Translations under genes and position numbers: made by a program
Source: an uncultured Bacteroidaceae bacterium
GTDB lineage: Bacteria > Bacteroidota > Bacteroidia > Bacteroidales > Bacteroidaceae
Direction of reading: 5' to 3'
NCBI GenBank assembly: GCA_905234605.1
Contig: CAJOIE010000002.1
Location: 62,001-126,000 of the forward strand
Length of the DNA stretch: 64,000 bases
Shown here: positions 2,430-63,250 of the stretch, piece after piece
How positions within the stretch are numbered: the stretch's first letter is position 1
Layout: each line of letters begins with the position of its first letter
The notes under the pieces: model-generated
Told to the model about the DNA's origin: nothing
The model's input: the letters and a program-made list of their open reading frames with translations, nothing else
The model's database searches: none

Positions 2430-2554
2430 CGCAGGGTGGCTGTACCGCGGCGTGCAGGGTGGTGCGGAACAGGGTGCAGGGTGGAGGCTCGCCACCATGC
2501 AGGGTGATGCGAAACAGGGTGCAGGGTGACGGCCGTCACCCTGCACCCTGTTTC
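2430..2554. repeat. TGCA-phased intergenic repeat array 1 (convergent junction)
   Basis: Copies of CAGGGTG/CACCCTG surround TGCA centres at 2453, 2475, 2498, 2520 and 2542, with a degenerate CGCA at 2430. The spacings are 23, 22, 23, 22 and 22 bp. Two of the units form a longer direct repeat about 45 bp apart. The array fills the gap between the 3' end of the nitroreductase gene (plus) and the 3' end of the DUF4625 gene (minus). It contains no gene. Confidence 0.85.
2511..2554. terminator. perfect 44-bp palindrome, probable bidirectional terminator
   Basis: Bases 2511-2532 are the exact reverse complement of 2533-2554. The GAAAC...GTTTC ends give a short T-run on either strand. It lies between two converging genes, 92 bp after the nitroreductase stop and 38 bp beyond the DUF4625 gene stop. 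Termination in both directions is inferred from structure only. Confidence 0.65.
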
Positions 2555-2591
2555 ATGTCGGGGTGGCAGCGCGTGGTGCGCGTGTCTGCTC

Positions 2592-3071
2592 CTACTCTGC
2601 TATCTTGATGCTTATGGGCAGGTGTGCACTCCAGCCCACACGGTCGTAGAGGCGTATGGAGAAGTGGTAGTCGCCGGTGTCGACGCTGTCGGGGATGGCT
2701 ATGAGCATGCGTGCCTCATAGTGCTTGAGCCCTTCGGGGATGGTGAAGGGTGTGTCGGGATTGTAGTGCCACGGGTTGACGGGCTCGCTGTCCTCGTCGA
2801 ACTGGCATGCGCCTGCTGCGCCGGCATGGTTGTGGTGGTCGGCGTTGCTGTGCACTTCTATCTGGAAGTTGCCCAGCTCGTGGTCGTCGGTGAAGACGTA
2901 GGCAAAGGGTATGGTGTCGCCACGGTGGTAGACCTGGCAGTCCACGGGGTTTGCCACGATGCCGTCGGTGCTGATCACCGGTGGTTGCATGTCGCGGTCG
3001 TCGTTGTCGGAGGAGCATGCGGTGCAGAGTGCACAGAGCATGGCTATGGGAAGGATGTTGATGTATCGCAT
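2592..3071 (-). CDS. DUF4625-type lipoprotein, His-rich
   Basis: This encodes 159 residues. The signal peptide ends in a lipobox, LCTAC, so the protein is a predicted lipoprotein, followed by SSDNDDRD. The body matches the DUF4625 pattern as I recall it: a beta-sandwich with FTDDHELGNFQIEVHSNADH followed by more His, then a C-terminal strand set around GDYHFSIRLYDRVGWSA. The HxxxDHHNH cluster suggests metal binding. The gene is last in the run alaS, channel, Cys/His peptide, TonB receptor, lipoprotein, 74 bp after the receptor stop. That position fits an accessory lipoprotein of a metal-uptake receptor. The family assignment is fairly sure and the metal role is inference. Confidence 0.8.
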   Translation of the reverse strand: MRYINILPIAMLCALCTACSSDNDDRDMQPPVISTDGIVANPVDCQVYHRGDTIPFAYVFTDDHELGNFQIEVHSNADHHNHAGAAGACQFDEDSEPVNPWHYNPDTPFTIPEGLKHYEARMLIAIPDSVDTGDYHFSIRLYDRVGWSAHLPISIKIAE

Positions 3072-3145
3072 GGTGCAAGAGGTTTAGTGTTTAAGAGTCA
3101 GGGGTTGAGGATTGTTCTGTAGGGGTTGATGTATGCAGCTGCCGC

Positions 3146-5257
3146 TCAGAATTCCCATCCCAGCATGAACGAGACGCCGAAGCCTGGCTCGGGCACGTCG
3201 ATGAGCCGGTAGTAGCTTGTGTGGTCGTAGTAACGGCGGTTGAGCAGGTTCTCGGCCTGCAGCGTGAGATGGAGCATGCCGCGTGGCAGTGGTATGTGCT
3301 TGCCTGCGGTTGCATTGAGAGTCCAGTGGCTGGCAGTGGGCTTCTCTGGCGGCACTATCTCGCTCTGCCTGCCCACGATGTCGGCATCCAGGCCCACATA
3401 GCCCTCGCCGTGCCAGACATAGGAGTAGCGTATGCCCGGGCGCACACTCCACGGCGTGGAGAAGGGCAGCGTATAGCCCCGCATGGGTCCCGACTGCTGG
3501 CGGGCGTAGAGCCACTCGGCAGCGAGCTGGGCTGTCCAGTGGCTGTCCACGTGCCAGTCGGCAGCTGCCTCTATGCCGCAACGCCCCACGGAGGCTTGTG
3601 TGTAGCGATACAGTTGCAGGCCTTCCACTCCCTCGAGCGTGGGGCTCAGGTAGATGTAGTTCGGGAAATAGCTGGCGTAGGGCTCCACACGTATTGCAAG
3701 CCGGCGGCCGTTGTAGTAGACGGCGGCGTCGAGCTGGTAGCACTCTTCGGGGTCGAGGGCGGCATTGCCCTGCTCGTAGCGGAACACGTGGTAGTTGATA
3801 CCGTCAGCACCCAGCTCCTTGGGTATGGGCACGCGGAAGCTCTTGCCCGCGTTGGCCTTGACGACCCACTCTCCAAGGCTGTAGGCCATGCCCGCCGACC
3901 ATGTCATACTGCTGAAGCGGCGGCAAAGGTCGGCAGACCGCTGCATGTAGACTGACGTGCCTGCCACAGGCGTGGCATACCAGTCGGTATAGCTCAGGAT
4001 GTGGGTGCGCGCCACGTCGCAGCGCATGCCGGCCTGCAACATCAGTGCCTGTGTGGGGCGGTACTGCTCCATGGCATACACGCCGCCGCTCCATGCGTCG
4101 AAATCGGGCATCACAAAGCCCCATCCGCCACGACGGTTGCGCTGCCATTCGCCACAGACACCGGCCTGCAGCTCATGCTGCCCTGAGGGTTGCCAGCGCA
4201 CAAAGGCATTGCCCGACCATGTGTCCTTGACGAAGCGGCGCTCCAGCGTGCCCGACGGACGCGGCATATAGCCATGTGCCACAGGCTCGGAGTGCTCCTC
4301 GCGCACGTTGCGCTGGTAGGCCACGCGGCCGTCGGCGGCAAACCGCGCCGTGTGCCACGACGCATGGCCAAGCACATTGAAGTGGTTCACCCACTGCGAG
4401 GGCACGTCGATGTCGCGCGAGGAGCGGTTGTAGTCGATCTTGGAGAGGCGCACCTCCATGCCGTGGGCATCGGCGAAGAAGCCGCTGTGGCTGTAGCTGT
4501 CGGACACGCGGATGTCGGCGTGGAAGCGGTAGCCCGCGTAGCCCACCATGACGCTCCCGTCACGCTCCAGCCCTGCGGTGTTGCGCAGGCGGCGATTGGG
4601 GAGGCGGACATAATAGGAATAGTATTCGATGCTGTCGGTGGGCACACGGTAGTCGCCATAGTCGATGAGCGTAGCGTTGGCGCGATAGAAGAAGCGGCCG
4701 TGGCACCCGCCCACCTTGGCCGAGAGGCCGAGCTGTGCATTGTTGCTGCGACAGAAGAGCCGGGCCGTGCCCTCGAGAGCCGACGTGGGAATGTGGTTGG
4801 TGTAGAGGTTGAGCACGCCGCCTATGGCATCGCTGCCATAGAGCAGCGCGGCAGGACCCTTGACCACCTCGGCGCGGTCGACAGCGAACTGGTCGACCTC
4901 AAGGCCGTGGTCGGCACCCCACTGCTGGCCTTCGTGCTTGATGCCGTCCTCGCTGACCACGATGCGGTTGAAGCCCAGGCCGCGTATGGCAGGCTTGGAC
5001 TGGCCCGAACCTATCGACATGGCCTTAACGCCAGGGATGGCCTCAAGCGTCTGCATGAGGCTGCCGGCGAAGTGGTCTTGCAGATAGTCGGCACCCACCT
5101 GCACGCTGGCCTGCGAGGAACGCATCTGCACATCGTGCTGGCGCTGCGACGAGACCGTGACGGCGTGCAGCGTGATGGTGGTGTCGCCGGCTGCGCACAA
5201 TGACAGCGACGCAGCCAGGAGGGTGGCAAACATAGTAAGAGGTGTTAGGTGGGACAT
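3146..5257 (-). CDS. TonB-dependent outer-membrane receptor, probably for a metal or metal complex
   Basis: This encodes 703 residues from the ATG at 5257, which gives a clean signal peptide (MFATLLAASLSLCAA). An upstream GTG at 5350 would add an unlikely N-terminus. There is no N-terminal CarboxypepD-reg domain, so the plug follows directly. Plug landmarks are LMQTLEAIPGVKAMSIGSG, KPAIRGLGFNRIVVSEDGI and AEVVKGPAALLYGSDAIGG. The barrel ends in LLNRRYYDHTSYY and a terminal Phe (LGWEF). The plug, with its GADHGLEVDQF segment, resembles zinc or copper type receptors such as the ZnuD/CopA group. It lies between a Cys/His-rich membrane peptide and a His-rich DUF4625 lipoprotein, which supports metal uptake. 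The exact ligand is unknown. Confidence 0.88.
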   Translation of the reverse strand: MSHLTPLTMFATLLAASLSLCAAGDTTITLHAVTVSSQRQHDVQMRSSQASVQVGADYLQDHFAGSLMQTLEAIPGVKAMSIGSGQSKPAIRGLGFNRIVVSEDGIKHEGQQWGADHGLEVDQFAVDRAEVVKGPAALLYGSDAIGGVLNLYTNHIPTSALEGTARLFCRSNNAQLGLSAKVGGCHGRFFYRANATLIDYGDYRVPTDSIEYYSYYVRLPNRRLRNTAGLERDGSVMVGYAGYRFHADIRVSDSYSHSGFFADAHGMEVRLSKIDYNRSSRDIDVPSQWVNHFNVLGHASWHTARFAADGRVAYQRNVREEHSEPVAHGYMPRPSGTLERRFVKDTWSGNAFVRWQPSGQHELQAGVCGEWQRNRRGGWGFVMPDFDAWSGGVYAMEQYRPTQALMLQAGMRCDVARTHILSYTDWYATPVAGTSVYMQRSADLCRRFSSMTWSAGMAYSLGEWVVKANAGKSFRVPIPKELGADGINYHVFRYEQGNAALDPEECYQLDAAVYYNGRRLAIRVEPYASYFPNYIYLSPTLEGVEGLQLYRYTQASVGRCGIEAAADWHVDSHWTAQLAAEWLYARQQSGPMRGYTLPFSTPWSVRPGIRYSYVWHGEGYVGLDADIVGRQSEIVPPEKPTASHWTLNATAGKHIPLPRGMLHLTLQAENLLNRRYYDHTSYYRLIDVPEPGFGVSFMLGWEF

Positions 5258-5357
5258 CGGCTCGCACCCTGACCCCCGCGCAGAACATGACAGCAGGCTC
5301 AAGGCGGAGCAATAGCAGACCACGTGCCCGCACGCCTCACGCACAAGCACGCTCTCC

Positions 5358-11895: not shown

Positions 11896-12240
11896 ATGGC
11901 ACTCAACACCAACAAAGACCTCAAGCAGTTCTACACCATAGCCGAGGTGAGCCAGCTCCTCGACCTGCCAGCCACACTGCTGCGCTACTGGGAGAAGGAG
12001 TTCCCCAACATACACCCCAAGAAGGGAGCCAGCGGCATGCGCGCCTACACCAAGGACGACATAGAGGAGATAACCCTCGTGCGTGACCTCGTCAAGGGGC
12101 GCAACATGAAGCTGGCAGCCGCACGCGAGCTGATACAGCGCAACCGCAAGGGAGCCACCGACGCCAACAACCTGATGAACAACCTCAAGGAAGTGCGCGC
12201 CGAGCTCATGGCCATCAAGAAGGAGCTCGACAGCCTGTAG
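11896..12240 (+). CDS. MerR-family transcriptional regulator
   Basis: This encodes 114 residues. The winged helix-turn-helix FYTIAEVSQLLDLPATLLRY leads into WEKEFP and MRAYTKDDIEEI, the standard MerR N-terminal pattern. The C-terminal about 40 residues form a dimerisation helix ending in LKEVRAELMAIKKELDSL. No Cys or effector domain is present, so this is the short type widespread in Bacteroidetes, usually near alaS. Here alaS is divergent, 2.7 kb away across the GH2 gene. It follows GH2 by 27 bp with no promoter of its own visible and is followed by repeat array 2. Its targets are unknown. Confidence 0.9.
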   Translation: MALNTNKDLKQFYTIAEVSQLLDLPATLLRYWEKEFPNIHPKKGASGMRAYTKDDIEEITLVRDLVKGRNMKLAAARELIQRNRKGATDANNLMNNLKEVRAELMAIKKELDSL

Positions 12241-12300
12241 CAGCCACACGACAGGTTCCCCTGCACACCCGCTCCACACAAGCCTTCACTCAAGGCCAGA

Positions 12301-12405
12301 CACCATGCACTGTAAACGCAGACACCCTGCATGGTGAACGCCCGACACCCTGCACTGTAAACGCGCAGACCCTGCACCCTCATTCAGAAGAGGATGCAGG
12401 GTCTG
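12301..12405. repeat. TGCA-phased intergenic repeat array 2 (convergent junction)
   Basis: Four tandem units with TGCA centres at 12306, 12328, 12351 and 12373 are followed by an inverted unit at 12395. The spacings are 22, 23, 22 and 22 bp. Three units share a downstream (G)TRAACGC stretch. Arms 12301-12309 and 12328-12336 are perfect inverted repeats. The array separates the converging MerR and rsh genes. The rest of 12406-12479 is GC-rich with no gene seen. Confidence 0.82.
12366..12405. terminator. hairpin with 11-bp arms, probable bidirectional terminator
   Basis: The arms 12366-12376 and 12395-12405 (CAGACCCTGCA and its complement) are perfect. After one mismatch, CCTC/GAGG extends the stem. 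An outer pair, GCACTGT at 12352 and ACAGTGC near 12414, could lengthen it further. It lies 3' of both flanking genes. Confidence 0.55.
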
Positions 12406-12479
12406 CTGCATTCACAGTGCTGCGGTCGGAGCTGCGGCCTGCTGCTGGCACGCCTGCGGCCTGCTGCGCCAACGGCGCG

Positions 12480-20384: not shown

Positions 20385-20426
20385 CACGCTCTCCCCCTGC
20401 CGCCATACGGCATTGCCTCACCCAAA

Positions 20427-20508
20427 CACCCTGCACCTACAAAGCAAACACCCTGCACTGTCTGCGCAAAGACCCTGCAGGGTGTTCGTGTATCACCCTG
20501 CAGGGTCT
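20427..20508. repeat. TGCA-phased intergenic repeat array 3 (convergent junction)
   Basis: Units have TGCA centres at 20432, 20454, 20476 and 20499 (spacing 22, 22 and 23). The last two are complete ACCCTGCAGGGT palindromes. It lies between the 3' ends of the outer-membrane gene (plus) and the CHASE2 gene (minus). The remaining 20509-20627 holds nothing I can identify. Confidence 0.85.
20470..20508. terminator. hairpin with perfect 15-bp arms
   Basis: The arms 20470-20484 and 20494-20508 are exact reverse complements around a 9-nt loop (TTCGTGTAT). Each arm is itself a 12-bp palindrome, so cruciform or tandem folds are also possible. No long T-run follows. Bidirectional termination is inferred from position. 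Confidence 0.55.
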
Positions 20509-20627
20509 GCAACCGCTGGCGGCACTCTCCTGCCCACGCATTGGCACAATACGCCACGAAGACACCGCGGGCATGATGCCCGCACACCATGGCATACTGA
20601 GCGCGCGGGCAGCGAACCGCAGCGATG

Positions 20628-36750: not shown

Positions 36751-36910
36751 CGCAAATGCGGCAGCCACCGAGGTGAGGGCACACGGCAGCAGCATGCCCT
36801 GACCACGGCTCCCGAGCATCGCAGCATGCCCCACTCTGCCATTCCTGCCGCAGGGGCTTGCCGGTGTAGCCGCTATTGCCTCTCTCTCCACATGCTGCAT
36901 GCACAGCAGC

Positions 36911-36990
36911 CACCCTGCAGGGTGCCGGCCGGGAGGGTGCACCCTCACGGCTGCCACCATGCAGGGTGTTAGCCCCACACCCTGCACCCT
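36911..36990. repeat. TGCA-phased intergenic repeat array 4 (birA leader region)
   Basis: TGCA centres lie at 36916, 36938, 36960 and 36983 (spacing 22, 22 and 23). Two are 14-bp perfect palindromes (36911-36924 and 36933-36946). The arms 36960-36968 and 36978-36986 form a hairpin with a 9-nt loop. Unlike arrays 1-3 and 5, it lies between genes on the same strand, ending 14 bp before the birA ATG. The preceding 36751-36910 holds no gene I can see. Confidence 0.85.
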
Positions 36991-37003
36991 GTTTTCACGC
37001 CCC

Positions 37004-42402: not shown

Positions 42403-42407
42403 CTGCC

Positions 42408-44939: not shown

Positions 44940-44957
44940 CGCTGCGAGACGGCAGAA

Positions 44958-45037
44958 CACCCTGCATGGTAAAGGCAAACACCCTGCACCCTCAAGACAA
45001 AGAGGGTGCAGGGTGTTTGCCTTTACCATGCAGGGTG
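44958..45037. repeat. TGCA-phased array 5: hairpin with perfect 36-bp arms (convergent junction)
   Basis: The arms 44958-44993 and 45002-45037 are exact reverse complements around an 8-nt loop (AAGACAAA). Four TGCA centres lie at 44963, 44985, 45007 and 45029, all exactly 22 bp apart, including across the loop. It sits 18 bp past tamL and 112 bp past the amylase stop on the other strand, so it could terminate both transcripts. The rest of 45038-45149 shows no gene. Confidence 0.9.
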
Positions 45038-45149
45038 ATGAGCCTGCGCACTGCGCGGAGCCGGCACGGCCACTGCTGTGAGTCTGCCCAAACACCGCTG
45101 TGACTCTGACGAGGCAGCACAGTTGGTTGGCGCGGGCTGTGTGGGTGGA

Positions 45150-53200: not shown

Positions 53201-56200
53201 CCAAACGCTCGTCGGCCTTCTCGGATGAAATAGTCATCACAAGGGTGGCGTCGTTGATAGCTGCCACAGGGTTCTCAACCTGGAAGTCGGTGCGTGAGTA
53301 CTCGGCAATGGCCGAAGGGCCGAAGCCATCAGCCAGAGCCACGGCACGCAGGGTCTGGTTGCGCAGGAAGTCGACAGGAGCCTCATAGAGCGTGCGAGGC
53401 GAGGTCGGGTCGCTTGGGTCGGAGCCGTCGGTGGTGTAGTATATATGTGCACCTGCGGTGGCCGATGTCATGGCAACGGTGAAGTTGTCGTATGCCAGCA
53501 CAGGAGTCTCACACGGTATATTGTCGAGGTCGTGCAGACTGGCGAACTCATTCCAGTATTGGGCAGCCTGATAGGCATTGGCAGCCTCTTCAGGCACATA
53601 GAGGTTAACACTGGCTGCCGTGGGGAAGGCTGTGCCGCCGGTCATGGCAGGCGGTGTGGTGGGGTTGGCATAGACAGCCGTCAGTGCCGTGCAGCCGCTG
53701 AAGGCGTCCTGCCCTATCTCTGCCAGTGAGGCCGGCAAGGTGAGCGTGGGCAGAGCCGTGAGGCCGGCAAAGGCATTCGTGCCTATTGATGTTAGCGTGG
53801 AGGGCATCACTATCGACACTATACCAAAGCAGCCGCTGAATGCATTGTTGCCTATGCTGGTCACGCCATCGGGCAGCTGCAGTGCCAGCAAACCGCTGCA
53901 ATCATTGAAGGCACTGGCACCGATGCTGCGCACACGGGCTCCAAAGGTCAGATTGCGCAAGTCGGTCTGTCCGTAGAGCCATGAGCCGACATTCTCAGCG
54001 TTGAGCGTTGCCGTGGTGATGTGTGCCCCGGCGAAGGCCACCCCTCCCATGTTCAAACGGCGACGCTGTATGTTGACGCTGACCAGCTGGTTGTTGCCAT
54101 AGAAGGCCGAAGCACCTACAGTGAGCAAGCCAGGACGCACGACGGCTTCGCCTATCATTATATTATATATGCGGCCAAGGTCCTCGCCATTGGATACACT
54201 GCCATCCTTGCTGTAGCTCACAGTGATGGTGTGAGAGCCGGCAGTGGTGAGGGTGCCGACGTAAGTATCGCTTGCAGAACCTGCCACGCGAACCACCTGC
54301 GTGCCGTCGAGCTGTATGGTAAGCCAGTCGCAGCCGCCCTCCGAGCTGACATAGTAATCGAACTGTATGCCTGCACCTGCTACAGCATCGAAGGTGTAGA
54401 CATGGTTTGATGTAGAGTTATGGCTGTGGTTGTCGCTCTCCCAGTCTTCAAGCCTGAGTGTCGAGGCCTCACTGACCTCCTCGTTGTCGAGAGGCGAGGA
54501 AGTCATCACTATGGCTTGCAGGCCTGTTGTGTTGAAGGCATTAGAGGCGATAGACGACACATTCCCTGGTATGGTCAGTGTGCCCGTGAGCGAGTGTGTA
54601 TCGCGGAAGGCACTCTCGCCTATCTCGGTCAGGTTGGAACCCAGCGTCAGGCCTGTGATGGCGGAGCCATTGAAGGCATTGGCAGCCACGGAGCTCACGA
54701 TGCATGTATGCCCGCCATGCTCTATGGTGGCGGGAATGACAATGGCACCGCTGTAGCCATTGTCGTCGCGGGCAGCAACCACGCTGACGATATTGTCGGT
54801 GGTGTAGTCGCGCAGCTTATAGTAGAGACCCTCGTGTTCGAATGCATAGTCGAGATCTCTTATCTCAATCCCCCACACATCGGAGTCGAAGTGGCCATCC
54901 ATCGTAGCTACGGCACGCACTGCCGTGTTGCGTTCCAGCAGGAACGGTGCCTCATAGCGGATGCGTGTCTCCGACGTGGTGGGGTCGGTGCCGTCAAGGG
55001 TGTAGTAGAACACAGAACCGCTACCCTCCTCATAGTTGGCTCCCACGGTGATGGTGCGTGTCGCCCCGTCCCAGTCTATCTGTGGCGCGTCAAGGCGGTA
55101 GGCCGAGTACAAGTCAATGTCTAAGCGGTCGGCGTTCTGCCAGTCGTCGCGGAAGGCATAGACACGCATCATGCCCGGACGTGTCGGATGGAGAGGCTCT
55201 GTGTAGAGCGTGCAGTTCTGCTCCACCTCCCCGCGTGTGTAGTATGTGGCAGGCCAGTCGCCGCTGTTCGTCGTCATGGAGTAGTAGATGACGGCATCGG
55301 CTATGGTCTCCTTAGGCTTGCTCACGGTGAGCGTCACGCTGAGGTCATCGCCGATGACATGCTCTGGCGTTGCAACCTTGAAGTCGGCGGCTGTCGGATG
55401 GTTGTATGTTGCCACGGGTGAGGCCGAGAAGCCATCGGCAAGAGCTATGGCCTTGATGGTCACGTTGCCCGTCAGGTCGATGTGGTCATTGTAGAGAGTG
55501 CTCTCTGCTGTGGGCACAGAACCGTCCATGGTGTAGCGGAAGGAGGCACCCTCAGTGGTTGATGCGAGGGTCAGAGTGTAGTCGCTGTAGCTGAAGGTGG
55601 GCTGTGCGGCAGGCATGTTGTCCGCAGCCACTATACTGCTGAAGTTCTGCCAAAAGGTTGCAGTCTGATAGGTTTCCACAGCCTCTTCGGGTACATGCAA
55701 GGTGGCTCGCGACATCATGTCGCTGAAGGGGTTGTAGCCGCCGTAGAAGGAGGCCGGCGTGGTGCCAAGGGCATAAATGTCGTTGAGCACAGGGCACGAC
55801 GTGAAGGCATATTCACCAATAAACTCGAGCGCAGCGGGCAGGGTGATGCTTTGCAGCTTAGTGCAATTATGGAAGGCGTAGCGCTCTATGCGTGTGATGG
55901 TCGATGGCAGCGTCACGGATACGAGCTCATAGCAGCTTTCGAAGGCCTGAGCTGATATTGATGTCACACCCTCAGGTATGACTATCGAGGTCAGGCGCGG
56001 ACAGTTGTAGAAAGGAAAGTTGCCCATGGATGTCACCGTGGCCGGTATCTGCACCGAGCGCAGTTGGTCGCACGTGTAGAACAGCTCCGCGCTGATAGTG
56101 GTCAGCCCTGAGGGCAGCACCACATCGGTGAGAGCATCGCAGTCGCGGAAGGCAGCCTGACCGATGGTTGTCAGCGATGCAGACAGTGACATGGAAGCCA

Positions 56201-59200
56201 TCGACGTGCAGCTCTGGAAGCACCTGTCGCCTATGCTGACAACACCGTCCGGCAGCGTGAGCGTGGTCAGCTGGAAACAGCCAGAGAAGGCCCAATCGCC
56301 TATGCTTTCCAGCCCTTCGTGGAAGGTGACAGTCTCCAGCTGATGGCAGTCCTCGAATGCTCTGTCCTCGATGGTCTTCACGCTGGCAGGAATGTCAATG
56401 CTTGCGAAGTTCTGACAGCCTGCAAATGCCTCGCTGCCAATGGTGGTGATTGTGTTGGGCAGGGTGACGGTGCCCAGCGCGTCGCAGTCGTAGAAAGCAC
56501 TATTGCCGATGCGCACCACGGTATACTCCACACCGTCGCGTGTCACGGTGGCAGGGATGGTGATGTCGCCACTGTACTTGCTGGGGTTGGAGGTCAGCTC
56601 AAGCACATTGCCAAGCATGCCGTCGGGTATGCGATAATAGATGTCGTCGGCAATGAATGTGGAGTTGATTGAGGTGATGTTGTTCTGCCGCTCGTCGGAG
56701 GGAAAGTGCTCAGGCCGCTCGGCCACGGCACGGATGAGCAGGTTACGGTTTATGACGAAGGCGTCGGTATACTCCATGCGCGTCTCCGATGTGAGCGGGT
56801 CGGTGCCGTCGATGGTGTAGTAGACGGTGGCCTCGGCATCCTCGTGAGCGATGGTCACGGTGCCCGTCTCGTCGTCGAAGTCTATCGTCGGCTGAGCCAG
56901 GTGGTAGTCGGTGTAGAGGTCGACGTTGCGACGGTCGGACATAATCCAGTTGTCGCGTATGGCGTAGGCAATCATAATGCCCGGATGTGTCGGGCGGAAA
57001 GGCTCGGTGTAGAGCTTATAGTTCTGCTTCACCCAGTCTATATCGCCATCTAAATAGTTTGGCCAATAGCTGCTTGCACTCATGGCGTAGTAGATGGCTG
57101 CATCTGCCACGGTTTCCTTGGGCGTGGCCACGCTCAGAGTGACGGTCAGGTCGTCGGCTACGCTTACCTCTGGCGTTGCCACCTTATAACTATTATAGGT
57201 ATAGGTGCCCACGGGCGACTGTGCAAAGCCCTCGGCCACGGCGATGGCACGCACGGTGCCGTTGGCCACGAAGTCTATCGGGCCTGTGTAGCGCGTGCTC
57301 TCCGTGGTGACCTCTGCCTCAGGGTCGGTGGTGTAGTAGATGGTGGCGTCGGGAGTAGTTGTGCTGATGGCGAGCATGTAGTCGTTAAGCACAAACGTGG
57401 GCTGTGCTGCCGGCACGTCGGATATCGCCTGTATGTTGAAGCCCTGCCAGACGGCAGCAGCACCGTAGGCCTCAATGGATGCCTCAGGCACATAGAGGTT
57501 CTTCGACGACGGTGTGTTGTAGAATGGGTTGTAGCTGGCTGATGTGGAGGGCGGTGTCTCGGCATAGCAGTACACATCCGTCAGGCGCGTGCAGTTGCTG
57601 AAGGCGTTGCCATCGACAGTGGTCACGCTGGCGGGGATGGTGATGCTGGCCAGCATGGGGTCGCTGTTGAAGGCGTTGTCGCCGATGAATGTCAAGGTGC
57701 CGGGCAGCGACACGCTCACGAGAGCCGAGCTGTTGCACAGTCCCTCGGGCGGGATGGATGTGATGCCCTCGGGCAGGGTTACCGAGCCGAGCGAGCGTCC
57801 GTAGGCGAGGAAGCCGCGCTTCAAGGTGCGCACACTGGTCGGGATGGTCACCTCCTGTAGGGCATAGAGGCTCGACATGGCCCACTCGCCTATCTCGGTC
57901 AACGTCTCGGGCAGGGTGATGCTGCGCAGCGAGATGCAGAGGTCGACGAAGTTGTCGGGCAGGCGCGTGAGGGAAGGCGGCACGGTGAGTTCCTGCAGAG
58001 CCGTACAGTTGTAGAACGTATGGTTGCCCACCTCGGCGAGACCGTCGGGCAGGTTGATGTGCTGCAGGCTCTGACTGTAGCTGAAGGCGTAGCTGCCTAT
58101 GCTGGTCACTGTAGACGGCAGCTGCACATTGACCAAGGATGTGTTGTAGAAGGCATAATTGCCAATACGCCGGAGACCTTCGTGCAGAGTGATGCTGCTC
58201 AGGTTGTAGCACTCATAGAAAGCATTGGCCTCTATCTCCTCCACGCTCGCGGGAATGTCTATGCTGGCCAGGTTGTCCACATAAAGGAAAGCCTCACCAC
58301 CAATGCTGGTTACGGTGCCCGGGATAGTCACCGTGCCGAGTGCGTCGCAGTCGTAGAAGGCTCGATAGCCTATGCGCACCACGGTGTAGTCCACACCGCC
58401 GTAGGTGATGGTGGCTGGTATGTTGATGTCGCCTGAGTATGTCTTGCCACCCGTCAGCTCAACCACGTTGCCCGACGAGTAGTCCACCTTGCGGTAGAGA
58501 TAGCCGTCCACGTTCATCGTGGAGTGCACGTCTGTTATGGTGTGCTCGCTCACGGTCGAGGGGAAGTGTGCCTCACGCTCTGCCACGGCGCGCACTTGCA
58601 GGTTGCGGTCGGGAACGACAGTCTCGCCGTCGTAGAGCACACGCGTCTCGGAGTCGCACGGGTCGGAGCCGTCGAGGGTGTAGTAGATGGCCACCGCGCC
58701 GTCGTTGTGACTGAATGTGAGGTTTGTGCCGTCCCAGTTGATGACGGGAGCATCGAGACGGTAGTTGCTGTAGGCATTGAAGCTCACGCAGGTTGCTCGC
58801 AGCCAGCCGTCGCGCAGGGCGTAGACTCGCAGGTAGGCCGGTCCCTCGGGACGGAAGGGCTCTGTGTAGAGCGCGCCTGCCTCGCGTATCTGCTCCTCCG
58901 TGGTGAGCTCGTCGGGCCATGAGCCGTCGTAGCGGATGTCATAGTAGACCTCGGCCACAGCCAAGCGCTCGTCGGGGTGTTCCACGGCGATGCTCACATA
59001 GAGTGTGGCGGGGTCAATGCTCACCTGTGGCGTTGCCACCTGGAAGTCCTGCTTGTCGAACACGCTCACGCCACTGGCCGCCATGCCCGTCTTCACAGCC
59101 ACGGCACGCACGGTGCCGTTGGCCACAAAGTCGATGGGTCCTGTGTAGAGACGCGTGCCTGCATCGCTGTCACCACCATCCTCACTGCCGCCACCTTCGC

Positions 59201-61418
59201 CTGCATCGGGCAGCACACTGGGCACCACTGGTTCGGAGCCGTCGGTGGTGTAGTAGATGAATGCATCCTCGGTGAGGGTGGAGATGGCAAGGGTGAAGTT
59301 GCTGTAGCTGAAGGTGGGCTGTGCAGCAGGCATCATCTCCAGCTGCTCTATGCGGCGGAACTCCTCCCAATAGTGTGTCTCGCGATAGCTGCTGACGGCC
59401 TCGGCCGGCACGTAGAGCGTTGCCCGCGTGAGGAAGGCTGCAAAGGGGTTGCCACCGGTGATGTCGGCAGGCGTCGGGTTGAGGGAGTATATCTGCGCGA
59501 AGCTGTCGCCTCCAAAGGCGTCGGGGGCTATGCTCTGCACACGCTCAGGCAGCGTTATCACCGTGAGCGCGCCGCAGTCGGTCAGGGCATTGCTGCCGAT
59601 AGTGGTCAGCGTCGACGGCAGCACCACCGATGTCAGAGCCGAGCAGCCACGCAGGGCCTCCTCCGGAAGTTCCTCTATGCCCTCGGGTAGCACCACCGAC
59701 GGTAGCATGCTACAACCATAGAATGTACGCGCGCCTATACGCGTGAGGGATGCCGGCAGCTCCACGCTGACGAGATGCGAGCACTCGCGCAGGGCATCGG
59801 CGTCCAGTGCGGCGATGCCTTCGGGCACCGTGAGGCTCGAGAGTCCCGTGCAGCCGCTGAAGGTGCCGGCAGGAATGGTGCTCAGGCTTGCCGGCAGGCC
59901 GGCGCTGGCCAGACTGGTGCAATTGGCAAAGACAGATATGCCCATCTCTGTCACCGACGGAGGCACGATGGCTGTGGTCAGTGACGTGCAACCCTCGAAC
60001 ACGCGGTCGCCGAGGCTTTCCACACTGTTGCCAAGGGTCAGTTCGTGCAGCTGTAGGCAGTTCTGGAACGCCTCATCATCCATACGGTGTGCACCCACGA
60101 CGGCCGTGGTGAGCCTCTCGCAGGCGGCGAATGCACCGCTGCTCACGGTTTCCACTGCACCGGTTATCTCCACGCTACGCAGCGAGCTGTTGCCCTGAAA
60201 ATAGCGTGGCACCTCGGTGCAGCCAATGCTGAGTTGCTCTATCTGGGTGTTGGCAAACGGGGTGCCCTGTATGGCCATCTGCTTCCGCAGCATGGAGAGA
60301 CTGTGTAGGGCGGGACACGAGCCGAAGCTGTTGTTCTCAAGGACGAGAGTGGTGCTTGGTGCACTGTGGGTGACCACTATGTTGCTGATGGTGCCCGTGT
60401 CGGTGCCGCTGTCCACAGAGCCGTCCTTACGGTAGCTCACACGCAGATAGGAGGCATTGGTGGAGCACGTGTAGTCAATGTGTCCGCTCTTGCCTGTCCC
60501 CGACTCACTCAGTATATTTGTGCCACCGACATTGACTGTGAGCACGTCGCAGCTGCCCTCGGAGTCCACGGTCCAGTCGAAGGAGATGATGTCGCCTTCA
60601 GCGGCCGTAATATCGTAGGTGTGCTCCGACGTGGTGCCGTGGTTGCCCTGGTTGGTGCTTGCCCAGTCGTCGTAGTAGTCGGGGGCTGGCACCTCGGGGT
60701 GGTAGCCGGCAGGTGCTGCCTGGAAGGTGACGCTGCTGTAGCCTGTGGCATAGAAGGCATTGCCATATATGCTGTTCACCGTGTAGGGCACCGTGAGCTG
60801 CCCCGTGAGACCGGAGCAGCCGGAGAAGGCCTGACTGCCTATGGTGACGAGTCCGTCGGGCAGGGCTATGGCTGTCAGTGACGTGCAGCCCTCGAAGGCT
60901 GCCGTGCCTATCGCTGTGAGAGTGGCCGGCAGCGATATGGTGGCGAGGCTGGTGCAGCCTTGGAAGGCGTTGCTGCCTATTGCCGTGATGCCGTCGCCCA
61001 GCGTCACCCTCGTGAGGCTCACACAATCGCGGAAGGCACTGCTGCCGATGGATTGCAGCGTGGAGGGCAGCGTCACCGACGTGATGCCTGCATGCCCCGT
61101 GCAGACGTTGTCGCCTATGGCACGCACGGTGTACTCCACGCCTTGCTTGGTGAAGGTGGCCGGCACGACGATGGCTGTCATGTCGGCGTCGATGCCTACG
61201 CCTGCCACGAGGCGCACATCGGTCGACCCCTCGGCAAGACGCTGGTAGTAGAGGCCCTCATTGTAGAAGTCGTAGTCCTGTGCGCTGGCCGTGAGCACGC
61301 CGCCGCAGAGCATGGCGACGACAGTCAGCATGCGACCTCCGCGCTTGCACCATGCCGCGCGTGAGATGATGGAGGATATGATATTGCTTTTCATCTTGTC
61401 GTAGATATCGTGGTTCAT
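47247..61418 (-). CDS. giant BspA-type leucine-rich-repeat / chitobiase-C-domain surface protein
   Basis: This encodes 4723 residues in one uninterrupted frame, about 500 kDa. After a signal peptide ending near GGVLTASAQ, five super-units begin at about residues 55, 970, 1590, 2200 and 3070. Each opens with a strand pair of the type YSGDINIPATITYGGVDYTV, followed by LRR_5/TpLRR repeats (IGSNAFQGCTSL type) and a linker ending in VPEEAVETYQ-like sequence. In the first four units, chitobiase C-domain modules with the IYYTLDGSDP motif follow. Units 1 and 4 also contain a jelly-roll-like domain (about 253-352 and 2323-2427, DWTVDSEGSCDVLTVNVGG). About ten more chitobiase-C modules lie in tandem at 3505-4300. 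The C-terminus (RRGVYDVSGRKMADDES, then GVFIVNGEKRIVH) resembles a type IX sorting tail. It is probably a surface adhesin or glycan-binding fibre. Confidence 0.9.
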   Translation of the reverse strand: MNHDIYDKMKSNIISSIISRAAWCKRGGRMLTVVAMLCGGVLTASAQDYDFYNEGLYYQRLAEGSTDVRLVAGVGIDADMTAIVVPATFTKQGVEYTVRAIGDNVCTGHAGITSVTLPSTLQSIGSSAFRDCVSLTRVTLGDGITAIGSNAFQGCTSLATISLPATLTAIGTAAFEGCTSLTAIALPDGLVTIGSQAFSGCSGLTGQLTVPYTVNSIYGNAFYATGYSSVTFQAAPAGYHPEVPAPDYYDDWASTNQGNHGTTSEHTYDITAAEGDIISFDWTVDSEGSCDVLTVNVGGTNILSESGTGKSGHIDYTCSTNASYLRVSYRKDGSVDSGTDTGTISNIVVTHSAPSTTLVLENNSFGSCPALHSLSMLRKQMAIQGTPFANTQIEQLSIGCTEVPRYFQGNSSLRSVEITGAVETVSSGAFAACERLTTAVVGAHRMDDEAFQNCLQLHELTLGNSVESLGDRVFEGCTSLTTAIVPPSVTEMGISVFANCTSLASAGLPASLSTIPAGTFSGCTGLSSLTVPEGIAALDADALRECSHLVSVELPASLTRIGARTFYGCSMLPSVVLPEGIEELPEEALRGCSALTSVVLPSTLTTIGSNALTDCGALTVITLPERVQSIAPDAFGGDSFAQIYSLNPTPADITGGNPFAAFLTRATLYVPAEAVSSYRETHYWEEFRRIEQLEMMPAAQPTFSYSNFTLAISTLTEDAFIYYTTDGSEPVVPSVLPDAGEGGGSEDGGDSDAGTRLYTGPIDFVANGTVRAVAVKTGMAASGVSVFDKQDFQVATPQVSIDPATLYVSIAVEHPDERLAVAEVYYDIRYDGSWPDELTTEEQIREAGALYTEPFRPEGPAYLRVYALRDGWLRATCVSFNAYSNYRLDAPVINWDGTNLTFSHNDGAVAIYYTLDGSDPCDSETRVLYDGETVVPDRNLQVRAVAEREAHFPSTVSEHTITDVHSTMNVDGYLYRKVDYSSGNVVELTGGKTYSGDINIPATITYGGVDYTVVRIGYRAFYDCDALGTVTIPGTVTSIGGEAFLYVDNLASIDIPASVEEIEANAFYECYNLSSITLHEGLRRIGNYAFYNTSLVNVQLPSTVTSIGSYAFSYSQSLQHINLPDGLAEVGNHTFYNCTALQELTVPPSLTRLPDNFVDLCISLRSITLPETLTEIGEWAMSSLYALQEVTIPTSVRTLKRGFLAYGRSLGSVTLPEGITSIPPEGLCNSSALVSVSLPGTLTFIGDNAFNSDPMLASITIPASVTTVDGNAFSNCTRLTDVYCYAETPPSTSASYNPFYNTPSSKNLYVPEASIEAYGAAAVWQGFNIQAISDVPAAQPTFVLNDYMLAISTTTPDATIYYTTDPEAEVTTESTRYTGPIDFVANGTVRAIAVAEGFAQSPVGTYTYNSYKVATPEVSVADDLTVTLSVATPKETVADAAIYYAMSASSYWPNYLDGDIDWVKQNYKLYTEPFRPTHPGIMIAYAIRDNWIMSDRRNVDLYTDYHLAQPTIDFDDETGTVTIAHEDAEATVYYTIDGTDPLTSETRMEYTDAFVINRNLLIRAVAERPEHFPSDERQNNITSINSTFIADDIYYRIPDGMLGNVLELTSNPSKYSGDITIPATVTRDGVEYTVVRIGNSAFYDCDALGTVTLPNTITTIGSEAFAGCQNFASIDIPASVKTIEDRAFEDCHQLETVTFHEGLESIGDWAFSGCFQLTTLTLPDGVVSIGDRCFQSCTSMASMSLSASLTTIGQAAFRDCDALTDVVLPSGLTTISAELFYTCDQLRSVQIPATVTSMGNFPFYNCPRLTSIVIPEGVTSISAQAFESCYELVSVTLPSTITRIERYAFHNCTKLQSITLPAALEFIGEYAFTSCPVLNDIYALGTTPASFYGGYNPFSDMMSRATLHVPEEAVETYQTATFWQNFSSIVAADNMPAAQPTFSYSDYTLTLASTTEGASFRYTMDGSVPTAESTLYNDHIDLTGNVTIKAIALADGFSASPVATYNHPTAADFKVATPEHVIGDDLSVTLTVSKPKETIADAVIYYSMTTNSGDWPATYYTRGEVEQNCTLYTEPLHPTRPGMMRVYAFRDDWQNADRLDIDLYSAYRLDAPQIDWDGATRTITVGANYEEGSGSVFYYTLDGTDPTTSETRIRYEAPFLLERNTAVRAVATMDGHFDSDVWGIEIRDLDYAFEHEGLYYKLRDYTTDNIVSVVAARDDNGYSGAIVIPATIEHGGHTCIVSSVAANAFNGSAITGLTLGSNLTEIGESAFRDTHSLTGTLTIPGNVSSIASNAFNTTGLQAIVMTSSPLDNEEVSEASTLRLEDWESDNHSHNSTSNHVYTFDAVAGAGIQFDYYVSSEGGCDWLTIQLDGTQVVRVAGSASDTYVGTLTTAGSHTITVSYSKDGSVSNGEDLGRIYNIMIGEAVVRPGLLTVGASAFYGNNQLVSVNIQRRRLNMGGVAFAGAHITTATLNAENVGSWLYGQTDLRNLTFGARVRSIGASAFNDCSGLLALQLPDGVTSIGNNAFSGCFGIVSIVMPSTLTSIGTNAFAGLTALPTLTLPASLAEIGQDAFSGCTALTAVYANPTTPPAMTGGTAFPTAASVNLYVPEEAANAYQAAQYWNEFASLHDLDNIPCETPVLAYDNFTVAMTSATAGAHIYYTTDGSDPSDPTSPRTLYEAPVDFLRNQTLRAVALADGFGPSAIAEYSRTDFQVENPVAAINDATLVMTISSEKADERLANAEYYYSIGGRIGEEGTLYISEASEAELRQYATLYTEPVQLTAPGWVYVVALRDGWIKSEMRQFNFQDDYYLSEPDIYVDENHLVHIGENYPDEDTEVSFRYTLDGSDPTPESTLYEGSFLVTQNHTIRAIAVKPAHFNSDVRSLVMEHYRVATPVVNFDADTYTLTISSDNPYDQDTRYYYTVSYQPTWPEMRADEAWLCENATLYTEPVTLDRPQYICAIAMRDGWIASEQTWNDLWDDYVTAAPSIRYESVNNVTTVYIGENFDIESGTTFRYTLDGSTPTAESTRYEGSFTLPRNLVVKAIAMQPRHFNSAVATQAVTGVYSTFAYKGIYYRYTDNSVAGEVEVTHEGDIKYAGDIVIPQTLEHKGSVCAVVGVGESAFAECPELTSVTLPSAIRYIEARAFSGCSAMTGDWTLPAATTRVGESAFAGTGITSLTIPAATTEIAQSAFDSAPITRLTIEAEPEDTEVGRDDEGNILPHLTVRDYAFNQCWSLGEVVIERRDVSIADYAFSNCDNIEVARVNSRTITRYLADHDHLTTVALGDNVETIGPGAYYSAGALRDITFGSRVRAISGSAFADCNSLQAVVLPESVETMGESVFQYSRNLQSIVMPRQMQSIGSNAFYACERLQSIVVPEGITVLASGIFDDCYCLSSVSLPSTLQRIGERAFNTCRSLQALTLPQALTNIDAEAFTECAALAEIYALPLQAPSLSGNPFSGLTDRVKLYVHESAYDSYSSVPVWMLFNSNMETFTDLPAAQPTFFFSDYALTITTQTPGAVIYYTTDGTDPDPADAYSYDGPVVFDRNMQVRAIAVAEGYSASAIAVYKRTDFKVATPAISITDDLVLTITTEQPVEVPTHIYYVMSEEWWPATYDDEADIVAHGTLYEGPIQLTRPGYVRCVVLRDDWAQSEWSGAEYQVGDRWRRVATPQISFSQITATITCEEEVDAIYYTFAGDVEPTRESTLYTGPFDMARDSYVRAIAVRRGLFDSESRAVWFSAADHTCRQPSFAGAVSRATTDSLVTIATATEDAIIYYTLDGSEPTTQSTVYTEPVKVEHNMVIRAIAVKQDMINSPISQANITWVTLHTPVIAAFDETVYCSITQDKPGSTIYYAIVDGSNVSVEPQTDDWNVYTDAFQMPRKASVVWTYAAMDDYNNSAIAKRTFEPNLNLVCGTPSISRITGTDRVRITTTTADADIYYTIDGDEPTEGSLLYDKEQNYVTVESNVTVRAVAINRHYYNSEVKDFAVTWFKVARPVITTEGIYVTIATTTPEARIYYTLDGTTPTNESTPYDGTFTMTGDATIQAIALRDEFNNSDVATFNYQVSAHSCGTPAFRREGGGIDGNIVAIEATPVAEQTSIYYTIDGSDPLESGILYTEPIVMTHNCTLRAVAVNPGYFNSPEGQMTVDWFRVSPPDFAYEGHVLTITCSTEGDDVVIYYRYLTPEGTAINDPQPYTGPLTLVNNRTVAAYAEKPDFNTSDEVQFSHSDFICTEVTFAYNGRYVTMEANDGSTIYYTLDRSTPNSQSDVYTEPVEITELCTVTAVATKRYFNDAPAATYAVKYLFDGERVSTGEAGHLDEVFEWRGGADDIETLPVTGSVNAADISYIKGMRSLRHLDMTGATIAEGSLPDRAFEGMQLVSYSSPQQSQAISVGEHVFAGCKQLAAIVWNITDNMPAQMLDDVDNDNFLVYVPSRIYAPASYTGNLISGSEAESIVLHDSETGGNFYCPRRFFARSISYTHTYSQATEPSVTMGWETLALPFDVASITHATNGAMKPFAADADVTEFRPFWLYELAETGFVRAAEIEAYKPYIISMPNNAKYADHFNLAGEVTFAGAADGVWVEADQADATTKGSITFLPTMMQVPQAANILALNVDKALHPEEADMPELTGSAFVAGLRDVHPFQAYALAEANAPSMVMLSDMLTREATAVRDVEMRMLLDFGARRGVYDVSGRKMADDESFFSTHPNAKGVFIVNGEKRIVH

Positions 61419-61453
61419 GATGGGGTTCGGCTTAGGTGGCGGCCTTTGCGGCG

Positions 61454-62998
61454 TCAGAGGCTGGGTGTCGGGTTATCGCCATCGCCCGGGGTGTCGCCGG
61501 TGGTGGTGAAGGTAGTCTCCGGCGAGTAGGCTATGCCGTTGGCGTTGCGGGCGTAGGCACGCACGTGATAGGTGGTGCCGGAGCGCAGCACGCCGCTGAG
61601 CGTGGTGCCTATGGTGGCGGCATAGCTGTCGGCATCCACCGCCACGGGCACCACGGTGTCGCTCACCGTGGGTGCGGCAGAGGTGGAATAGCAGAAGCCG
61701 GCCTCCGTCACGGCCAGCGGACTGGTATAGCTGGAGGAGAGGGTGGCGTCATAGCGTGCCACGGCAGAGGCCACGGGCGTGGTGGGCGACGGTGGTGTGG
61801 CACCCACCTGTGTGATGGTGCAGGTGGCTGTCTTGCCCGACTCGGAGGTGGCTGTGAGCACCACCGTGCGCGCACTGCCCGACGTGTTGTCCTGCAGTGT
61901 CACGGTGACGGGTATGCGGCTCTCCTGGGTGTCTCCCAGGCCCTGGTCGGGAGTGAAGCTGAACCAGTCGGCCTGCACGCTCGATGTGATGTTCCACTTG
62001 GCATTGCCCACGACGGCAAAGGTGTGCATGCCTGCGCGCGCCGGCAGGTCGGCAAGAGTGGTGGGCTCTATGGAGATGACCACCGTGCGCCCCACCTGCG
62101 ACACCTCGACGGTGACGGTGTGTGTGGTGTAGACTGCGTCTTGGATGGTGAGAGTGGCCGCGCGTGCTATCTCCGAGACGGCAGCCGCCACGTTGAGACT
62201 TACTTCCTGCGTGCCGGCACCCTGAGTGGCTGAGGGCGTAATCCAGGCCGGAATGTTGGTGATAGTCCATGTGGAATTGCTTGTCAGCGTGAAGTGGTAG
62301 GTGTCGGCACCCTCGTCGGCCGAGATGCTGGCCGGACTCACACTGAGCACCACCTCATGGGCTGCCTGGCTGACGGCTATGGTCTGCTGCTTCTCGCCCT
62401 TCTCGCCGGCTATTGTCAGCGTGGCCGAGCGTTCCTGCTCGTCGGGGTTGGCTGCCACCGTGATGGTGAGCTCCGCATTGCCCTGCCCCGACGTGGCCGA
62501 GAGTGTTATCCAGTCGGGCTGTCCCGTGATGCTCCAGCGCGTGTTGCTGGTGAGGGTCAGAGTGTATGTCAGGCCGGCCTCGGGAACGGCGAGCGTGCGG
62601 TCGGCTTCGGGCACGCCCACGGTCTCGCCGGCCACCAGCTGCGTCACATTGACCTTGCGTGCCACGCCGTCGGCCGAGGTGATGGTGACCACGCACGAGC
62701 GGGTCTCAAGGGCTGAAGGGTTGACGCCCGTGGTGATGGTGATCTGGGCGTTGCCCGAGCCTTGCGGAGTGCCCACGGAGGCCCACGAGGCACTGCTCAC
62801 TGCCGTCCAGCTGGTGTTGCTGCTCACGCTAATCTCCCCCGAGGATTTGTCACCCTCGATGGTGATGTCCTTGGCATCGAGATAGTCGGCCGAGGCAACT
62901 ACTTCTGAGAGGTCGCTGTTGTCGCCGCCGCATGAGCTCATGGCGAAGAGGGCTGCCACAAGGCCGGCACCGACGAGGTATCGGTATGTCCTGTTCAT
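61454..62998 (-). CDS. BACON-domain lipoprotein with C-terminal Fn3-like domain
   Basis: This encodes 514 residues. The lipobox is FAMSSC followed by GGDNSD. Four BACON-type beta domains span about 40-405, each with the pattern SNTSWTAVSSASWASVGTPQ or SNTRWSITGQPDWITLSATS. The last about 100 residues (YTSPLAVTEAGFCYST, then GTTYHVRAYARNANGIAYSP) are an Fn3-like module common at the ends of Bacteroidales lipoproteins. BACON domains bind glycans or act as spacers in carbohydrate-active and mucin-associated proteins. It is 35 bp upstream of the giant gene with no promoter in between, and has its own promoter at 63046, so both form one transcript. Confidence 0.9.
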   Translation of the reverse strand: MNRTYRYLVGAGLVAALFAMSSCGGDNSDLSEVVASADYLDAKDITIEGDKSSGEISVSSNTSWTAVSSASWASVGTPQGSGNAQITITTGVNPSALETRSCVVTITSADGVARKVNVTQLVAGETVGVPEADRTLAVPEAGLTYTLTLTSNTRWSITGQPDWITLSATSGQGNAELTITVAANPDEQERSATLTIAGEKGEKQQTIAVSQAAHEVVLSVSPASISADEGADTYHFTLTSNSTWTITNIPAWITPSATQGAGTQEVSLNVAAAVSEIARAATLTIQDAVYTTHTVTVEVSQVGRTVVISIEPTTLADLPARAGMHTFAVVGNAKWNITSSVQADWFSFTPDQGLGDTQESRIPVTVTLQDNTSGSARTVVLTATSESGKTATCTITQVGATPPSPTTPVASAVARYDATLSSSYTSPLAVTEAGFCYSTSAAPTVSDTVVPVAVDADSYAATIGTTLSGVLRSGTTYHVRAYARNANGIAYSPETTFTTTGDTPGDGDNPTPSL

Positions 62999-63045
62999 AT
63001 TGGGAAGGGATTTTCGTGCTTAATGGGATGCATACACTCTGCTGG

Positions 63046-63053
63046 CAAATATA
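63046..63053 (-). promoter_or_regulatory. -7 promoter element (TATATTTG) for the BACON-giant operon
   Basis: This perfect match predicts a leader of about 43 nt. It is the only match seen for the following 15.7 kb of minus-strand coding sequence. Confidence 0.6.
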
Positions 63054-63145
63054 GTCAAATCCGCTATCTACCATATATTTACGATGCAAAATCATCATTT
63101 TTCCCTTGCATGAGGCACAACAGCAGGTGACCACCCTATGCAAAT

Positions 63146-63250
63146 CACCCTGCACGGTCACGCCAATGACCATGCAGGGTGGTACGAGCACACCATGCAG
63201 GGTATGCGGCATGCAGGGTGCAGGGTGTACAGAAAGAGGGTGCAGGGTGC
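63146..63250. repeat. TGCA-phased intergenic repeat array 6 (3' of the PAP2 gene)
   Basis: TGCA centres lie at 63151, 63173, 63196, 63219 and 63241 (spacing 22, 23, 23 and 22), with an extra overlapping copy at 63212. The arms 63146-63160 and 63167-63181 form a 15-bp hairpin with one mismatch. It abuts the PAP2 stop codon (63252) and lies 93 bp upstream of the BACON-giant promoter, so it would separate two minus-strand transcripts. Confidence 0.83.

Follow-up and report, generated by a model that had tools for sequence, protein, structure and literature searches.

TGCA-centred arrays in the window

The stretch of DNA analysed here (the window) comprises 64,000 nucleotides from an uncultured Bacteroidaceae bacterium (assembly GCA_905234605.1, contig CAJOIE010000002.1, positions 62,001 to 126,000) and carries, in gaps between its genes, six arrays of short near-palindromic sites, each centred on TGCA. 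A first-pass annotation had reported these arrays and had stated that their centres are 22 or 23 bp apart throughout; on re-reading the window we find all six in place, with every step between the listed cores 22 or 23 bp long (Table 1). TGCA-TGCA distances of 22 bp occur 18 times in the window and those of 23 bp six times, against zero to five times for any other distance from 4 to 39 bp. Of the few extra TGCAs nearby, those at 12407, 20508, and 63212 are weak or out of register, and that at 37005 enters the next gene. The final two sites of array 1 form an inverted repeat together with their flanks, and array 5 reads as one long hairpin, spacers included (both judged by eye). The genome to which the window belongs, G000, is an assembly of 2.36 Mb in 26 contigs that is 87% complete; one window protein, P0001, has its closest named records in Prevotellaceae, at 71 and 52% identity.

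Table 1 The six arrays of the window, with the position of the T of each TGCA core and the flanking genes.
Array	Span	Strand	Sites	Steps (bp)	T of TGCA	Gap	Left neighbour	Right neighbour
1	2442..2554	none	5	22,23,22,22	2453/2475/2498/2520/2542	convergent	nitroreductase-like gene 1679-2419 (+)	DUF4625 gene 2592-3071 (-)
2	12297..12408	none	5	22,23,22,22	12306/12328/12351/12373/12395	convergent	MerR-like gene 11896-12240 (+)	RelA/SpoT-like gene (named by eye) 12480-14711 (-)
3	20423..20512	none	4	22,22,23	20432/20454/20476/20499	convergent	gene without Pfam match 19341-20384 (+)	CHASE2 gene 20628-21845 (-)
4	36907..36996	none	4	22,22,23	36916/36938/36960/36983		tRNA 36611-36681 (+)	biotin/lipoate ligase-like gene 37004-37768 (+)
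5	44954..45042	none	4	22,22,22	44963/44985/45007/45029	convergent	Omp85-like gene 42468-44939 (+)	cyclomaltodextrinase-like gene 45150-47114 (-)
6	63142..63254	none	5	22,23,23,22	63151/63173/63196/63219/63241 (extra TGCA, out of register, at 63212)	codirectional	BACON-domain gene 61454-62998 (-)	PAP2 gene 63252-63860 (-)

Genome-wide extent and register of the sites

A distinct phased family, as proposed in the first-pass annotation, should give a genome-wide peak of TGCA spacing at 22-23 bp, and this peak is present: TGCAN{18,19}TGCA occurs at 796 places in G000, compared to 43 for the reversed control, and the ACCC-anchored pattern ACCCTGCAN{18,19}TGCA at 228 + 234 places, compared to 0 + 0. 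Arrays were called with a weight matrix built from 305 strictly chained sites, combined with a chain rule, in 834 kb of G000, namely 400 of the 407 kb of contig C1, all 274 kb of C2 (which includes the window) and 160 of the 209.5 kb of C3. This yielded 70 arrays (32, 24, and 14 on C1, C2, and C3, respectively), which extrapolates to about 200 in the whole genome, or one per roughly 12 kb. Four sites per array is the commonest number (39 arrays), with three, five, six, and eight sites in 6, 14, 9, and 2 arrays, respectively. Chains of at least three sites defined by TGCA alone give 68 arrays at the 22/23 pitch in the same DNA, and zero to two at each of six control pitch pairs.

Within the arrays, 150 steps measure 22 bp and 83 measure 23 bp (mean 22.356). 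The pitch described in the first-pass annotation is therefore correct, but the two step lengths do not alternate freely. Two successive 23-bp steps are found 11 times versus 20.6 expected, and mixed pairs 98 times versus 74.3 expected. The sums of three steps are even more constrained, with 66, 67, 68, and 69 bp found 12, 60, 22, and 0 times, respectively (n = 94); their variance is 0.350, versus a shuffle mean of 0.678, and none of 2000 shuffles was as low. TGCAs beyond the 140 array edges are found at 22 (8), 44 (7), 66 (6), 67 (7), and 111 bp (5), versus a mean of 1.14 per offset, with four extra TGCAs at the off-lattice offset of 48 bp. The steps follow a single lattice of about 22.35 bp, and the correction seen in the three-step sums, together with the TGCAs beyond the edges, indicates a cumulative measure of position, such as a rigid scaffold or one face of the helix would provide, and not just one from neighbour to neighbour.

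Anatomy of the site

The half-sites adjoining TGCA (n = 596) are most often ACCC (229), followed by ACCA (85), AGGG (60), ACGG (33), ACCG (32), and rarer others. The perfect palindrome ACCCTGCAGGGT, which the first-pass annotation had given as the ideal form, does not hold as a consensus, being depleted to 7 of 314 sites versus 42.5 expected, and the likeness between the two halves of one site (0.451) is below that of random halves (0.567). A typical site joins one ACCC half to a different half. Adjacent units have the same polarity in 93 cases and the opposite polarity in 35, and polarity matches the direction of the genes in 23 of the 31 scorable codirectional gaps.

The outer five nucleotides of neighbouring units show an identity of 0.412 in direct orientation versus 0.348 for random pairs, meaning that neighbours are mostly not copies of each other. 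Spacer identity reaches 0.523 within an array versus 0.414 between arrays (best orientation), and eight of 108 within-array pairs are identical. The spacers also have a self-complementarity of 0.364, versus 0.25 when shuffled; this weak second dyad between sites points to alternating half-sites about 11 bp apart. The arrays are not copies of one another, the most similar pair in G000 reaching 85% over 60 bp.

A restriction-like depletion is seen outside the arrays on C1 to C3 for CATATG (11 vs 114 expected), GATATC (18 vs 71), and CTGCAG (281 vs 546). Restriction avoidance was considered as the cause of the site asymmetry, and the depletion of CTGCAG is too mild alone to account for 7 sites versus 42.5.

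Placement between genes

With genes called by our own simple codon-usage caller, arrays are found in four of the four convergent gaps of the window, one of the four divergent gaps (beside a tRNA), and one of the 22 codirectional gaps. On C1 to C3, 64 of the 249 gaps of at least 100 bp hold an array. Split by gene orientation, the share is 19 of 37 for convergent gaps, 14 of 61 for divergent gaps, and 31 of 151 for codirectional gaps. Six of the 70 arrays fall outside such gaps, for example where C1 begins, across the end of a gene, or within a called gene.

The distances between neighbouring arrays (n = 67) are more even than expected by chance, with a mean of 11.9 kb, a minimum of 5.84 kb, and a coefficient of variation (CV) of 0.459; 64 of the 67 lie between 5.8 and 18.2 kb. 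Only one is shorter than 6 kb, whereas permutations in six modes (2000 runs each) gave means of 21 to 25 such distances and never fewer than 13, with mean CVs of 0.86 to 0.93 and none as low as observed. A stricter permutation of labels within contig, gene context, and length class (5000 runs) gave on average 22 distances below 6 kb and never fewer than 12, versus the one observed, and no CV as low as the 0.554 of the intergenic arrays (61 gaps). When arrays are defined as chains of at least four TGCAs (66 arrays), one distance below 6 kb is again found, and the CV of 0.760 is explained by missed arrays. On the held-out contigs C4 to C18, neighbouring places of one site type are separated by either at most 80 bp or no less than 6.0 kb, which is a weak test given how sparse this type is.

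Arrays in related genomes

The motif search in relatives, suggested in the first-pass annotation, showed that the motif is not shared. In none of 60 further genomes of the same genus does the G000 motif have more than four matches per strand, versus 228/234 in G000, and in none of 300 further genomes of the family more than five per strand, a sample which overlaps that of the genus.

That the pitch is shared was seen in a lag scan that requires no motif, run with G000 excluded on 543 intergenic regions drawn from ten genomes of the same genus and from 47 loci found via P0001. Most of these loci belong to other genera; they include the contig of G047 itself and two identical loci. After 30 of the 543 regions had been dropped as short-period repeats, the scan returned 58 medium-period arrays, of which 34 have a best lag of exactly 22, the next commonest lags having three each; ten Markov-shuffled sets returned two arrays in all. 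A stricter score for palindromic arrays, with a cut-off of 37 and never above 35 in 1294 shuffled regions, identified pitch-22 arrays in 43 of 549 regions, any other pitch from 17 to 33 giving zero to four, two hits in G274 being set aside as AT-rich or as a single hairpin.

The palindromes themselves are unrelated between species and also within one genome, as exemplified by TTCCATCNNGATGGAA, GTATCACNGGTGATAC, and CTCTTAAGAG in G047, by TTAGGCCGGCCTAA, CTCTATAGAG, TTTTCCCACCGGTGGGAAAA, and others in G015, and by GAAGGTGTACACCTTC in G379. On the 3' side of the Omp85-like gene that precedes array 5, G379, G015, and G366 have pitch-22 arrays of different sequence, and the other 25 of the 29 loci have none as judged by best lags (the 29 include the window's own locus with its array, and one of the 25 offers only 96 bp). 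Two close Prevotella loci (90.7% nucleotide identity) share an array and differ by exactly one 22-bp unit. Further away, with one 1.3-kb locus of G432 (L234) excluded, 82 regions from ten other genera of the family gave three pitch-22 hits, of which one or two are convincing, and 76 regions from seven genomes of other families of the order gave no convincing array. Other repeats that contain ACCCTGCA at 22-23 bp, for example ACCCTGCACGAAACGGAGCGCAAACCCTGCA, with different sequence between the cores, were seen in G185 (on several contigs), G226, and G239.

A dispersed element in G047

Of 138 other genomes of the genus, G047 is the closest to G000 by P0001 (71% identity). The palindrome TTCCATCNNGATGGAA occurs at 107 places in G047, at most 11 in each of 138 other genomes, and none in G000. 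One form of it, TTCCATCACGATGGAA, accounts for 102 of these places, and the 100 places listed form 41 groups: 24 triplets in which both steps are exactly 22 bp, 11 pairs whose members are 22 or 44 bp apart, and six single copies. Inspection of 20 of the 24 triplets, which we selected, showed similar flanks, swapped in two of them. When 12 copies were taken wider, most had a leader of about 200 bp, followed by the core and a tail of degenerate 22-bp direct repeats. The element (loci L276-L307) contains three 22-bp palindromic units, and an inverted repeat, GTCCGCTAAATATTT...AAATATTTAGCGGAC, lies close to its right end.

By its layout, this is a dispersed element resembling BrickBuilt, which is outlined as a minisatellite-bearing miniature inverted-repeat transposable element (MITE) of Porphyromonas gingivalis with 23-nt repeats, present in 19 copies of 1 to 22.8 repeats between a leader and a tail with inverted ends (PMC4596501). 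On that outline, leader, repeat core, and tail come in the same order in the G047 family, and BrickBuilt and the arrays have in common intergenic tandem repeats, a nearly equal unit length (23 nt), and many copies per genome. The G000 arrays differ from BrickBuilt in having no shared leader and tail, such as are present in G047, a different species. Other differences are that a G000 array usually has four sites, that its units have diverged and lie on a 22.35-bp lattice, and that the arrays, extrapolated to about 200, are over-evenly spaced.

The flanks of the arrays were compared directly. At equal depth, pooled flanks hold 0.086 bits per column in G000 versus 0.573 in G047, the former rising weakly, to 0.23 bits at most, at the expected position of the next lattice site. 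A pairwise test found only 2 of 2415 array pairs similar in G000. The same test flagged 45 of the 66 pairs formed by the 12 G047 copies that were taken wider and none of the three pairs among three TTCCATC triplets; given these misses, the absence of shared flanks in G000 rests on the information content. Left and right flanks in G000 are not inverted copies of each other (0.260 vs 0.270). In G379, 5 of 13 arrays show flank similarity, partly due to another short repeat. The mobile palindromic repeat that the first-pass annotation offered as an alternative fits one G047 palindrome family and is not seen for the G000 arrays.

A proposed role as phased binding platforms

We propose that the arrays are phased platforms with several sites for a putative sequence-specific DNA-binding protein, whose function we take to be chromosome architecture, and we give this reading a probability of about one half. 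One TGCA-centred site of about 12-16 bp, with its two unequal half-sites, would bind one copy of the protein, probably a dimer, and the common lattice of about 22.35 bp would usually bring at least four copies into line in a single rigid assembly. The sites stand in cumulative register, as such a platform requires. The idea of a protein array with all sites on one DNA face, already raised in the first-pass annotation, gains from the lattice as far as a rigid phased platform is concerned, but the copies would share one face only with a helical repeat of about 11.2 bp per turn and not 10.5. The architectural role is suggested by the even placement of the arrays, which might serve as anchors of loops or supercoil domains, or as insulation between transcription units. 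The platforms were possibly first spread by mobile elements and then retained while their spacers and flanks decayed; the G047 element would illustrate how new palindromes spread, and the G000 arrays would be old or independently built, retained by selection on phase and site number.

Several observations speak against this proposal. The lattice implies 11.18 bp per turn, above 10.5, and 11.2 bp per turn differs from the value for relaxed B-DNA; the apparent helical repeat in living bacteria lies near 11 bp. Three inter-array distances in G000 exceed 20 kb, two of these, of 34 and 38 kb, on C1; the latter are filled by what appear to be long operons and housekeeping genes, among which weaker chains occur, and a horizontal island behind them is unsupported by GC content or gene starts (by eye). 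Even spacing is not general either, since G379 has three arrays 2.1-2.8 kb from the next and two copies of one G047 family lie 3.7 kb apart. Arrays are only weakly shared beside the same side of orthologous genes: between G000 and the other genomes, 16 sides have an array in both, 74 only in G000, 22 only in the other, and 213 in neither (odds ratio 2.1, p 0.05, which is borderline, the pairs not being independent), and the corresponding counts among the other genomes (23/286/127/2112) indicate a weaker association still. The likeness of spacers within an array means that some units may be duplicates, and the presence of the 22-bp pitch inside the dispersed G047 element and its non-palindromic tail means that a fixed pitch need not imply a binding protein. 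Lastly, clustering of the flanking genes revealed no gene family that recurs beside arrays across genomes so as to name the protein.

That clustering was also the basis for rejecting a regulator gene beside the arrays, nothing being recurrent beyond orthologous sites. HU-HIG proteins (PF18291) were rejected as candidates because they are present in 35 of 41 genomes of a phylum sample and are not distinctive.

Carried to the whole chromosome, the platform proposal leads to a tentative and, on balance, doubtful picture: G000 would be subdivided by a quasi-periodic lattice of about 200 sequence-specific, rigidly phased anchor platforms, most of them holding four or more copies of the putative protein at a register of 11.2 bp per turn, and its relatives would keep the two-turn ruler and swap the site sequence wholesale, possibly through successive waves of mobile elements. 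What determines the domains of about 10 kb in bacterial chromosomes is, to our knowledge, an open question, and sequence elements whose even placement would make them candidates are not known to us. The G000 arrays combine a spacing near this scale with a built-in helical ruler, and if the anchor lattice were real, domain boundaries about 10 kb apart would be written in the DNA. The turnover of palindromes at constant pitch would also exemplify a change of DNA-binding specificity under a fixed assembly geometry.

Alternative explanations

The strongest alternative, possible but clearly less probable than binding platforms, is that the arrays are the cores of non-autonomous, MITE-like mobile repeats comparable to BrickBuilt, spread by an outside transposase and without any role for the host; the 22-bp units would be transposase-binding or selfish, and the even spacing would result from target immunity. 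The G047 family fits this description, with its TTCCATCACGATGGAA triplets in similar flanks and its leader, core, tail, and inverted repeat, as do the flank similarity among some G379 arrays and the species-specific bursts of palindromes such as TTCCATCNNGATGGAA. The G000 arrays do not, given their uninformative flanks that are neither similar in pairs nor inverted copies, and spacers that are little alike between arrays though the phase is kept. A Y1 transposase was also not found in G000, in a search limited to that family. If the arrays were mobile after all, they would constitute a repeat class with a fixed 22-bp rule.

Alternatively, the arrays could act as hairpins in RNA or single-stranded DNA, as attenuators, 3'-end stabilisers, or terminators. 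Compared to dinucleotide shuffles, 52 of the 70 arrays fold at z < -2 on one strand or both, with a mean z of -3.9, and 33 of 48 arrays of relatives (G274 left out) fold better than shuffles. The long hairpin of array 5 and the agreement of polarity with gene direction in codirectional gaps are also consistent with this explanation, so that a function at the RNA level is possible for part of the arrays. As a general explanation it is unlikely: the other 18 arrays miss z -2 and yet hold the pitch, perfect site palindromes are avoided, and arrays occur in divergent gaps too. A run of five T within 30 nt of an edge is found in 6 of 70 arrays versus 23 of 185 random intergenic places, and Rfam at the gathering threshold, run on the window and four G047 loci, gave a single tRNA and nothing else. 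Intrinsic terminators, which combine a GC hairpin with a T-run after it, do not fit in particular, T-runs near the edges being no commoner than at random places.

It is very improbable that the arrays are neutral, functionless tandem repeats produced in 22-bp steps through slippage or unequal exchange: the single-unit difference between the two close Prevotella loci and the partial likeness of spacers within arrays are what slippage would leave, but it does not correct phase over three steps among units that are mostly not copies, and relatives favour no step other than 22.

Comparison with other known systems

Repetitive extragenic palindromic sequences and bacterial interspersed mosaic elements (REP/BIME) are outlined as high-copy intergenic palindromes that are grouped and regularly spaced, with reported binding of host proteins and a suggested role in chromosome organisation (PMC2817692, PMC3733652). 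The G000 arrays match this outline in copy number, with 228 + 234 anchored pairs genome-wide (more than 100), and, by the contexts of the 70 sampled arrays, in intergenic location. They differ by having one fixed 22-bp pitch across unrelated palindromes and no copy relationship between arrays. The REP-associated tyrosine transposase (RAYT) gene, for which the first-pass annotation proposed a search, was not found, Y1_Tnp (PF01797) giving 0 matches in G000 (at the assembly's 87% completeness), and no GTAG/CGTC-type head is visible by eye beside the palindrome in the weight matrix (305 sites) or in the spacer columns. On these two grounds we rejected a REP/RAYT system for G000.

Plasmid iterons and partition sites also form arrays of several sites phased at about two helical turns and bound cooperatively, but they occupy one or few loci per replicon, compared to 70 arrays in 834 kb of G000. 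Regulators of the Lrp or ribbon-helix-helix type bind as oligomers to multiple dyad sites in helical phase; the G000 arrays differ in being many and evenly placed, with a regulator that is only putative. A CRISPR (clustered regularly interspaced short palindromic repeats) array needs repeats of 24-48 bp with unique spacers of similar size, whereas here the whole pitch is 22-23 bp with a site of about 12 bp. A virus origin was rejected as well, 27 contigs giving a single match each, taken as chance by a rough estimate, and a second motif giving 0. In an open-access library without most subscription journals, we found no description of a 22-bp phased repeat class in Prevotella-like genomes, and the arrays look like an undescribed system, either chromosome-organising or mobile-repeat.

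Further observations

Within the window, a MerR-type regulator gene immediately precedes array 2, and the largest inter-array gap holds a single open reading frame of 4723 amino acids (47247-61418, minus strand).

Two genes have an array at their end in more than one genome, with palindromes that differ. A DUF3276 gene, whose product we take to be a PUR-like nucleic-acid-binding protein, ends towards an array in G000 (C1:383027-383507, L063) and in G391 (C60:50422-50890), the assignment being made by Pfam on the G000 copy only. A DUF4332/helix-hairpin-helix gene has an array directly 3' in G000 (C3:92277-92851, L203) and in G379 (C21:4010-4502); Pfam was run on the G000 copy, to which the G379 copy is 83% identical. 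Other short tandem periods, of 7 bp (TGACAGT-like), 8 bp, and 11 bp (GTTAGGACTAG-like and ATCCCTCACCT-like), are present in intergenic regions of G015, G040, G042, G379, G391, G392, G416, and G417.

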